Shown here one piece after another: positions 8,998-11,904 of a DNA stretch of 36,157 nt. Source of the DNA: Bacteroidaceae bacterium (GTDB taxonomy: Bacteria; Bacteroidota; Bacteroidia; Bacteroidales; Bacteroidaceae); assembly GCA_024398665.1 (NCBI GenBank), contig JAKSIS010000022.1, forward strand, positions 1 to 36,157. The letters run 5' to 3'. The position numbers were made by a program, and so were the translations under genes. The notes beneath the pieces were generated by a model that was not told the DNA's origin, made no database searches, and saw only the letters and a list, made by a program, of their open reading frames with translations. The first letter of the stretch is position 1, and each line of letters starts with the position of its first letter.

Positions 8998-9957
8998 TCA
9001 TATGAATTTCTGCCCGCATGAAAGGTCATTTCCGCAAAGGAATGCGCTTGCCGGCATGCGTTTCCGGCCTGCAATCTGGACCTGAAGAAGTCGCAGCGCA
9101 CCATCAGCGGCAGCCACTTCAATGAAGCTCTTGCCGTCAGTCGTGACGGTTCCCGGTTCACGGGCCGGAGCGGATACGGCGACAGCCTCATATACTTTGA
9201 AATCCAGCATTGAACCGTCAGTTTCCTGAAGGACGGTCCATGCTGCAGGATAAGGCGATAGGCCGCGTATGAAGTCCGATATCCTGCGGGCCGGCATGTT
9301 CCAGTCTATGCGGCAGGTCTCCTTGAATATTTTCGGAGCCGGACGCAGATCACCGGATTCATCCTGGGGGACTGATGACACATTGCCGGAAAGTATGTCG
9401 TCAACGGTCTGCAGTGTCACCTCAGCACCCAGTTCCATCAGGCGGTCATGAAGTGTGCCGGCATTGTCATCGGCCTTAATGGGAACCCGCTCCTGGCGTA
9501 TTATGTTGCCGGTGTCAATGTCATGTTTCAGGAAGAATGTGGTGACTCCGGTTTCCGTATCGCCGTTGATTATGGCCCAGTTGATGGGTGCGGCGCCGCG
9601 GTACTGCGGCAGCAGTGATGCGTGCAGGTTGAATGTACCCAGACGCGGCATGCTCCATACGCATTCGGGGAGCATGCGGAATGCGACCACTATCTGAAGG
9701 TCCGCCTTGAGTGCAGACAGTTCCTCAAGGAATGCGGGGTCCTTCAGGCGCTCGGGCTGGAGGCACTTCAGACCGTATTCCACGGCAGTATTCTTTACGG
9801 CACTGCCCTGAAGCACACTGCCGTGACGGCCCATGGGCTTGTCAGGCATGGTCACCACACCGACTACATTGTAGCCGCCGTCCACAAGCCGGCGCAGAAC
9901 GGTCTGCGCAAATTCCGGCGTACCCATGAAGACTATTCTCAGGTCTTTCTTTTCCAT
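8998..9957 (-). CDS. fmt: methionyl-tRNA formyltransferase
   Basis: Formylates initiator Met-tRNA using 10-formyl-tetrahydrofolate. From the ATG at 9957 the protein has 319 residues, as usual for the family. The catalytic Rossmann domain shows FMGTPEFA (10-17), NLHASLLPQYRG (110-121; catalytic Asn110 and His112) and HDIDTG with catalytic Asp148; the C-terminal OB domain spans about 210-315. The frame stays open upstream to 10035, but those 26 codons are encoded by an inverted-repeat element (9957-10124) and are not family sequence, so MEKKDL is the start. The A of this ATG is the last base of the element's perfect terminal repeat. The upstream gene is the ClC channel. Confidence 0.96.
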   Translation of the reverse strand: MEKKDLRIVFMGTPEFAQTVLRRLVDGGYNVVGVVTMPDKPMGRHGSVLQGSAVKNTAVEYGLKCLQPERLKDPAFLEELSALKADLQIVVAFRMLPECVWSMPRLGTFNLHASLLPQYRGAAPINWAIINGDTETGVTTFFLKHDIDTGNIIRQERVPIKADDNAGTLHDRLMELGAEVTLQTVDDILSGNVSSVPQDESGDLRPAPKIFKETCRIDWNMPARRISDFIRGLSPYPAAWTVLQETDGSMLDFKVYEAVAVSAPAREPGTVTTDGKSFIEVAAADGALRLLQVQIAGRKRMPASAFLCGNDLSCGQKFI

Positions 9958-10124
9958 AGAAGCTGTTTTGAAATGTTCGATTAAAAATTTTATGAAAGAT
10001 TTTCGAGATGAAAATTCGGTTATTTGAAGGAGCAATGGGGCTCCATTATGACTGAAAAGAAACGGATTTTTCAGCCGGAAAGATTTTATAAAAGATTAAT
10101 TGGAACATTTCAAAACAGCTTCTA
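9957..10124. repeat. 168-bp fold-back inverted repeat (MITE-like) between clc and fmt
   Basis: The ends 9957-9978 and 10103-10124 are perfect 22-base inverted repeats, beginning TAGAAGCTGTTTTG and ending in its complement. The interior continues as an imperfect palindrome (roughly 9979-10028 against 10045-10102), closing on a short hairpin with GGAGC at 10029-10033 and GCTCC at 10040-10044. The outermost bases are TA on both sides, as expected for a TA target duplication of IS630/Tc1-mariner-type MITEs. Removing the element with one TA would leave TGA-TT-ATG, a 2-base clc-fmt spacing like its neighbours. It is too short to encode a transposase. It could instead be an RNA hairpin for processing or attenuation. 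Confidence 0.75.
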
Positions 10125-10125
10125 A

Positions 10126-11904
10126 TCATTCTTCAGACAGTTCAAGCAGGACGTTCCTGTATGAGTTGAATATCTTTGACTTTGAAACGAAACCCACATA
10201 CCTGCCCTCTTCATCTTCAACGGGCAGGTTCCAGGCTCCGGTCTCATCGAATTTCTTCATGACCAGTTCCATGGGATCATTCACCGACAGACGGGCCGGC
10301 GGCAGTTCCATAAGTTTCTGGACGAAGAAGCGGTGGTAGAGTTCCTGACGGAACATTATGTTTCTGATGCTTTCAAGGCTGACCACACCGACCAGGCGGT
10401 GTTCCTGGTCCAGCACCGGAAAGAGATTGCGTTTTGAGCGGGCTATCACATTGACCAGCTGGCCCAGATCCATATCCGGACTGACTGACAGGAATTCCTT
10501 TTCTATGACGTTGTCCATGCTCATGAGCAGCAGCACCGACTGGTCCTTGTGGTGTGTCATAAGTTCTCCCTTCTGCGCCAGACGCATTGAGTAAATGCTG
10601 TGCGGCTGGAACAGGCGGATTGTCAGGTATGACATTATAGAAACCATCATCAGAGGCAGGAACATCGAGTATCCGCCGGTCAGTTCCGCAATCAGGAACA
10701 CTCCGGTAAGCGGAGCATGCATGACGCCGGACATCAGGCCGGCCATGCCCAGCAGAGCGAAATTCTGTTCCGATACGTCAGCGGCGGGGAACAGGCGGTT
10801 CGACATGGTGGCGAACACGAATCCGGTAAGACACCCCAGGAACAGGCTGGGTGCGAATATGCCGCCGCAGCCGCCTCCGGCATTGGTGGCTGTTGACGCG
10901 AACACCTTTGCAAGGATTACAAGGACCAGGTAGAGAATGAGTTTTCCTCCGCCATAGAAGAGGGAACCTTCCAGAACCTTGGCCGAATTCTGTTCGCTGT
11001 CAAGCAGCAGGGTAATGGTATCATAGCCCTCACCGAACAGTGACGGAAACAGGAATATCAGGACGCTCAGTATCAGGGCGCCGGCACAGAACCTGACATA
11101 CGGGTTCCTGAAACGTTTGAACCAGGTCTCGAACCAGTGCATGGTCTGTGAGAAGTACAGTGACACAAGTCCGCATACTATTCCCAGTATCAGGGCATAT
11201 GGTATGCGGCCAAGGCTGAATTCGTGCGCAGCCACAAAATTGAACATGGCGTCAGTACCGGTGAACACGTATGATATGGTGGCAGCCGTGACCGATGATA
11301 CGAGCAGCGGCATGAGCGACCCCATGCTGAGATCAAACATCAGTACCTCAAGCACGAACACAAGACCTGCAATGGGAGCCTTGAAGATACCAGCAATGGC
11401 ACCGGCCGAACCGCAGCCCACAAGCAGCATCAGCGTCTTGTGCTCCATCTTGAACATGCGGCCGATGTTCGAACCTATGGCTGACCCTGTAAGGACTATA
11501 GGCGATTCGGCACCGACTGATCCGCCCATGCCTATGGTAATGGCGCTGGCAATGACTGACGAGAACATGTTGTGCGGTTTGATACGGCCGTTCTTCTTTG
11601 AAAGGGCGTACAGGATTTTTGTCACACCGTGTCCTATGTCGTCACGGACAATGTATCGGATGAACAGTCCGGAAACGAATATTCCTATCACCGGATAAAT
11701 GAGAAGGCTGTAGTTCTCCTGACTGGTTTCAAGCCCTCCGGCTATCATCCCGTGTATAAGTTCGATGAGAAATTTCAGAATGATGGCGGCGAATGCGGTG
11801 AACACACCTACGAGAAGGGCCAGAATGAGTATGAACTGACGCTCGCTGATGTGGTCCTTTCGCCACAGGTTGAAGCGGTTGAGCAGCGATTCCCTCTCTT
11901 CCAT
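10126..11904 (-). CDS. ClC-family chloride channel/antiporter with CBS domains
   Basis: Inner-membrane ClC protein, 592 residues, moving chloride either as a channel or in exchange for protons. The membrane part (about residues 20-450) has the selectivity and gating sequence GSVGAESP, where Glu133 aligns with the gating glutamate of GREGP in other ClCs. CGSAGAIAGIFKAPIAG and GGGCGGIFAPSLFLG, typical of the family's helix N region, follow. The C-terminus carries a CBS pair (about 465-590), which in relatives binds adenine nucleotides. The gene begins 5 bases after the tsaC stop and ends one base before the inverted-repeat element preceding fmt. The ion and the coupling mode cannot be decided from sequence. 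Confidence 0.93.
   Translation of the reverse strand: MEERESLLNRFNLWRKDHISERQFILILALLVGVFTAFAAIILKFLIELIHGMIAGGLETSQENYSLLIYPVIGIFVSGLFIRYIVRDDIGHGVTKILYALSKKNGRIKPHNMFSSVIASAITIGMGGSVGAESPIVLTGSAIGSNIGRMFKMEHKTLMLLVGCGSAGAIAGIFKAPIAGLVFVLEVLMFDLSMGSLMPLLVSSVTAATISYVFTGTDAMFNFVAAHEFSLGRIPYALILGIVCGLVSLYFSQTMHWFETWFKRFRNPYVRFCAGALILSVLIFLFPSLFGEGYDTITLLLDSEQNSAKVLEGSLFYGGGKLILYLVLVILAKVFASTATNAGGGCGGIFAPSLFLGCLTGFVFATMSNRLFPAADVSEQNFALLGMAGLMSGVMHAPLTGVFLIAELTGGYSMFLPLMMVSIMSYLTIRLFQPHSIYSMRLAQKGELMTHHKDQSVLLLMSMDNVIEKEFLSVSPDMDLGQLVNVIARSKRNLFPVLDQEHRLVGVVSLESIRNIMFRQELYHRFFVQKLMELPPARLSVNDPMELVMKKFDETGAWNLPVEDEEGRYVGFVSKSKIFNSYRNVLLELSEE

Follow-up and report, generated by a model that had tools for sequence, protein, structure and literature searches.

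A short palindromic element at the fmt start codon of a Bacteroidaceae bacterium is an inserted MITE, most likely moved by an IS5-family transposase

The DNA analyzed here is a stretch of 36,157 nucleotides (hereafter called the window) from a Bacteroidaceae bacterium, in which the gene encoding methionyl-tRNA formyltransferase, fmt (8998–9957, minus strand, 319 amino acids, PF00551 and PF02911), is preceded by an upstream gene encoding a clc-type channel with CBS domains (10126–11904, minus strand, PF00654 and PF00571). The junction between the clc stop, at 10126 on the minus strand, and the ATG of fmt is filled by sequence that folds back on itself. A single inverted pair was found, made of two arms of 82 nt each (9957–10038 and 10043–10124) that are 72% complementary and separated by a spacer of 4 nt. 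The preliminary description of this locus had reported perfect 22-base inverted repeats, an imperfect palindrome throughout and a TA at both outer ends, and all three were recovered: inverted-repeat comparison places the left perfect arm at 9957–9978 (plus strand) and the right one at 10103–10124 (minus strand), outer TA included, and the palindrome runs along the whole of 9957–10124. The overlap with fmt proposed there is also correct, the first base of the ATG being 9957 on the minus strand, at the foot of the hairpin. Furthermore, the plus strand of 9950–10130 is strongly foldable, with a free energy of -68.2 kcal/mol, whereas shuffled sequences average -32.3 (z -9.4, none of 200 shuffles being as low).

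While the repeat stands as described, the element itself does not extend over 9957–10124. Comparison of copies together with their flanks, including four full-length copies in the genome of the window, trims it to 9959–10122 (plus strand), that is 164 bp beginning with GAAGC and ending with GCTTC, the plus orientation being defined by a tip reading ...CCATTATGACTG. The outer TA belongs to the duplicated target and lies outside the element proper; from the empty site in relatives, its left copy is at 9957–9958, where 9957 doubles as the first base of the fmt ATG, and its right copy at 10123–10124. The best conserved part of the interior between the two subfamilies described below is the tip hairpin region (10023–10059, plus strand, from BLAST and alignment), in which 23 of 29 columns are identical between subfamily majorities (alignment columns 71–100). 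Short, bounded by terminal inverted repeats and devoid of a transposase gene of its own, the window copy contains just one frame, of 26 codons.

The clc-fmt junction was compared across the genus. In all 36 other genomes of the genus, the gap between clc and fmt is 2–49 bases long and lacks the element, the gaps of two loci (L100 and L101) resting on an extrapolated fmt start. The junction that excision had been predicted to leave, TGA-TT-ATG, is present exactly in three of these relatives (G031, G022 and G016), and the window reads CCATA-(164 bp)-TAATCA where the empty site of relatives reads CCATAATCA, with the TA doubled. Copies elsewhere, the 36 relatives that are empty at this place and the three exact empty sites thus support the proposal that a foldback MITE entered a junction that used to be tight. 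Because copies sit elsewhere and relatives are empty at clc-fmt, the element of the window is an inserted mobile element and not an ancestral hairpin. On the sequences compared, the insertion is derived and private to the window species among the species examined.

The further copies foreseen under a mobile-element reading were indeed found when the whole element was searched in its own genome (2.24 Mb in 90 contigs, 84% complete). Sixteen matches to the 168 bases were obtained, the palindrome being counted in both orientations. They include four dispersed full-length places with 98–100% identity (C15, C21 twice and C7), partial matches of 133 bp and 90 bp close to the ends of contigs, one shortened copy measuring about 95 bp (C55) and fragments of the ends (C17 and C20). 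Since some contigs end in copies, the true copy number may be higher. Beyond this genome, the element matches 12 of 61 genomes (its own included), all 12 being among the 37 of the genus, and none of the 24 genomes from 24 other families of the order. End-pattern matches with up to 3 mismatches amount to 16 in the own genome, 81 in G030 and 85 in G033, compared with 3 over 11 genomes for the reversed pattern used as a control; the end pairs listed for G033 and G030 include minimal forms of 44–110 bp.

In four genomes (G004, G011, G019 and G033), BLAST with the window copy matches the tip only, at positions 67–103. Three of these loci (G004, G019 and G033) have the same build with diverged arms and represent a second subfamily. 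The fourth, in G011 (L017, around 1501–1534, contig C13), has no MITE ends, its tip hairpin being located inside a different imperfect inverted repeat, and it is perhaps another element sharing the tip. On a wider scale, a search for the 19-base end signature across 84,980 species genomes returned 98 stretches, of which 96 were matched by the MITE sequence in BLAST, a bare figure that includes the bases of the signature, itself part of the element. The match covers at least 40 bases in 76 of the 98 stretches, at least 60 in 58 and at least 150 in 36. The two stretches without a MITE match, from Massiliimalia and Atopobacter, are likely due to chance. Among the 80 titles listed, 78 are Bacteroidales MAGs, many of them named with horse, yak, buffalo or reindeer.

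Several copies depart from the basic build. In G031 (L044 954–3646, contig C93, 26453–29145), the two halves of a MITE flank about 2.5 kb containing an open reading frame for a lipoprotein-like product of 524 amino acids and a short one that resembles, by eye, the end of an IS3-type integrase; this insert may be cargo or a nested insertion. Two copies of 233 bp (L042 575–811 and L043 556–791) are longer by about 69 bases, located next to the tip hairpin, and a sequence related to this extra segment is found on the other side of the tip in a copy of the own genome situated at a contig end (L038 2805–2947). In four other loci (L009, L030, L037 and L051), copies adjoin the end of another copy at a distance of one to a few bases, as if MITE ends were preferred targets.

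Target duplication was analyzed on 85 de-duplicated end pairs lying 40–420 bp apart, a few of which are doubtful (L230, for example). The three outer bases are identical on both sides in 48 of these pairs (TAA 23, TTA 20, TGA 4 and TAT 1), when 2000 shuffles of partners gave a mean of 23.7 agreements and a maximum of 35; an earlier and smaller set had given 34 of 65. The agreement has the form TNA in 47 pairs, it extends to a fourth flanking base in two and is never longer, and TA alone is common to both sides in 12 pairs, the window copy included. Within the element, all four letters occur as the fourth base of an end, but the two ends of a pair agree at this position in 77 of 85 cases; shuffles gave 36.7 on average and 50 at most, and lineage accounts for part of the observed figure. 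Within the IS5 family, elements of the IS1031 group typically duplicate a TNA target.

Ends of the same kind are found on IS5-family elements of this lineage. In the own genome (L055, contig C72), a 485-bp remnant of an IS5-type transposase gene has the ends GAAGCTGTTTTGAAAT and GAAGCTGTTTTAAAAT and is flanked by TTA on both sides. A longer, interrupted relative in G016 (L060) has the left end GAACCTGTTTTGAAATCATT; its right end was looked for and not found. In G030 (L061), an uninterrupted transposase gene of 266 amino acids is enclosed by ends of the GAAxCTGTTTAAA type and flanked by TAA on both sides, and some MITE copies of this genome bear the TTTAAA type of end. The 266-amino-acid protein matches NF033580 with 219.5 bits (cut-off 110), as well as PF13340 and PF01609. 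The ends common to MITE and IS are 13–17 bases long and the interiors differ. With this protein as query, matches were obtained in 8 of 37 genomes, mostly as fragments; the sole uninterrupted transposase found in this way is that of G030, another species, and the own genome (84% complete) contains fragments.

Several observations count against an IS5-family partner, namely that the window copy duplicates TA and not TNA, that 25 of the 85 end pairs share neither three bases nor TA, that the similarity between MITE and IS is confined to the 13–17 bases of the ends, and that the intact transposase gene lies in another species. On balance, we hold with high confidence that the element of the window is an inserted MITE, which most likely owes its movement to the action of an IS5-family transposase on the common ends. 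In such a mechanism, the transposase would act in trans, binding the ends shared by MITE and IS and inserting the MITE at a TNA or TA that becomes duplicated. The element probably spread through the genus with the help of IS5-family transposases.

An IS5 transposase should have no need of the interior palindrome, and a less likely explanation starts from it: a single-stranded hairpin with a fixed polarity, made of RNA or of DNA, would be the form under selection or the form that moves, and the IS5-like ends would account for only part of what the element does. When 26 chosen copies of both subfamilies were aligned, 96.6% of the pair cells proved to be standard pairs, a percentage that drops to 40–56% when the structure is slid. 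Changes on both sides affect 27 of 63 pairs, a number attained in 1 of 500 shuffles (mean 21.1), and neither the covariation score nor the percentage of paired cells was reached by any of 500 shuffles. Family A alone (37 copies) has 13 columns with Watson-Crick double changes. Paired changes keep the interior complementary while the interior arms of the two subfamilies diverge to about half identity. On the other hand, further pair types are no more numerous than in shuffles (60 against a mean of 59.8, reached by 281 of 500). Between the majorities of the two families, 18 pairs differ on both sides; some of these may reflect replaced or misaligned arms, because the interior arms are identical at only 21 of 46 and 24 of 47 positions.

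The two strands are also unequal. The plus strand folds better in all 50 full-length copies tested, with means of -66.4 against -47.9 in family A (n = 37) and of -82.3 against -52.2 in family B (n = 13). With strand-neutral pairing, consensus wobbles are G-T rather than A-C by 5 to 0 and 7 to 0 in the two families (sign tests 0.0625 and 0.0156); on the alignment structure, these fixed wobbles occupy 5 and 7 columns, one of them common, hence 11 distinct columns. Among minority cells, the result depends on the structure chosen, since the plus and minus strand pairs differ: G-T to A-C is 51 to 14 (A) and 34 to 5 (B) on the plus strand pairs of RNAalifold, and 17 to 10 and 3 to 6 on the pairs predicted for the minus strand. 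The strand-neutral totals, 204 to 36 and 98 to 15, are mostly made up of the fixed G-T pairs (5 and 7 per consensus), and once these are subtracted the remaining cells are more often A-C than G-T (G-T to A-C about 19 to 36 and 7 to 15). The asymmetry of wobbles therefore rests on about 11 fixed columns, as the remaining minority changes show no such bias.

These fixed G-T wobbles on the same strand in both subfamilies are a hint that a single-stranded form, perhaps RNA, matters. However, the counts are small and come from related copies, and the same pattern could arise from template-switch correction of palindromes or from strand-biased mutation. The surroundings of the copies do not help this explanation either: of the 51 full-length instances, 38 had flanks of 350 bases or more on either side; none of these 38 fell inside a gene according to a crude ORF caller, and the neighbors relative to the plus strand are (-,+) in 16, (-,-) in 11, (+,-) in 8 and (+,+) in 3. 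Copies are thus not found preferentially downstream of a gene that runs in their own direction, and the tendency is, if anything, the opposite, with too few cases (n = 38) to claim it. Selection on an RNA or ssDNA hairpin, template-switch correction and strand-biased mutation could each explain parts of the data. We regard as speculative and rather unlikely the proposal that the element depends, for its spread or its persistence, on single strands of one polarity, most likely a hairpin RNA made by transcription; if true, IS5 ends would here be the vehicle of a mobile structured RNA.

The preliminary description had proposed, as one of two possibilities, a MITE of the IS630/Tc1-mariner type, with TA as the duplicated target. 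Taken alone, the TA-only duplication of the window copy would fit such an element, and 11 other pairs behave in the same way. However, this pattern is limited to these 12 of 85 pairs when three-base TNA sharing concerns 47, and the same ends are carried by IS5-family elements of the genus. In addition, PF13358 (IS630-type, DDE_3) gave no match in five genus genomes, that of the window included, these assemblies being incomplete; the same search gave matches in 3 of 14 control genomes. An IS630/Tc1-mariner origin is therefore not supported, and we regard it as very unlikely.

A shade less likely still is the second proposal of that description, an ancestral hairpin kept at clc-fmt for the control of fmt, which fails by the very comparison suggested for it, since other copies sit elsewhere in the genome and the 36 relatives lack the element at this junction. 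In its favor, a very stable fold ends at the AUG of fmt, and two sigma-70-like sites lie inside the element on the minus strand, for a shuffled mean of 0.8 (sd 0.8) and with an E. coli-type consensus that may not apply to Bacteroidales. Against it, the element contains no terminator-like site, the only one in 9700–10400 being outside, at 10341, and no Rfam family was matched at gathering score, the six weak matches (E up to 1) all being far below.

An insertion at a start codon may nevertheless have consequences, and an effect of this copy on fmt is possible. In the minus strand form, as present in the fmt mRNA (-56.8 kcal/mol, z -5.6), the arm preceding the AUG and the A of the AUG itself are predicted to be paired. 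A paired AUG would hinder initiation there, and the hairpin would uncouple fmt from the translation of clc. Furthermore, the fmt frame remains open into the element as far as an in-frame TTG (10033–10035, minus strand), a putative alternative start that would add 26 residues (ORF 8998–10035, 345 amino acids). From such modeling, we infer that the hairpin may hinder or reroute the translation of fmt.

Just as improbable as the ancestral hairpin is a mobile -33 promoter box that would build hybrid promoters with TAnnTTTG, a promoter motif, at the junction: this motif starts within the first five flanking bases in 21 of 296 collected ends, which the TNA duplication accounts for, its frequency given TA being not clearly higher next to the element than elsewhere, with 13/225 (offsets 0–1) and 21/287 (offsets 0–4) near the ends, and 74/1597 (offsets 10–100) and 32/573 (offsets 10–40) farther away. 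A peptide encoded by the 26-codon frame starting at the ATG of the tip was likewise discarded, many of the 51 copies being start-less, shifted or stopped.

Correia/NEMIS, RUP and BOX elements are short mobile palindromes of intergenic DNA that can enter transcripts, and the MITE of the window resembles them in being a short mobile palindrome in intergenic DNA and differs from them in sequence and transposase partners. With IS5-family ISs (NF033580; DUF4096 plus DDE_Tnp_1), it shares the ends of L055 and L061 and the 3-bp TNA duplication, but it encodes no transposase and, as far as seen, has an interior unrelated to theirs. RUP and BOX are also named in PMC10969869. Further counterparts are the MITEs of P. 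gingivalis (MITE239, MITEPgRS/464, MITE700 and BrickBuilt), whose terminal repeats match those of IS5-family elements in the same genomes (PMC4596501). They are also short Bacteroidales elements devoid of a transposase gene, and their occupied sites show duplications while other strains have the sites empty (PMC4596501). Their ends, GAGAC... or ACGTC..., are however distinct from the GAAxCTGTTT found here, and BrickBuilt has a minisatellite and irregular duplications where the present element has a wholly palindromic interior and mostly TNA. No title or abstract on this family was found in the open-access literature searched. IS5-linked MITEs are thus already known in Bacteroidales from P. gingivalis (PMC4596501), and the GAAxCTGTTT-ended family is a new member of that kind.

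Altogether, this genus of uncultured gut bacteria shows how a small element that can be tied to a transposase family reshapes the junction between two genes of an operon, in the present case right at the fmt start codon. If a strand-specific hairpin proved to be under selection, this family would offer a tractable case for understanding why some bacterial MITEs are palindromic throughout.
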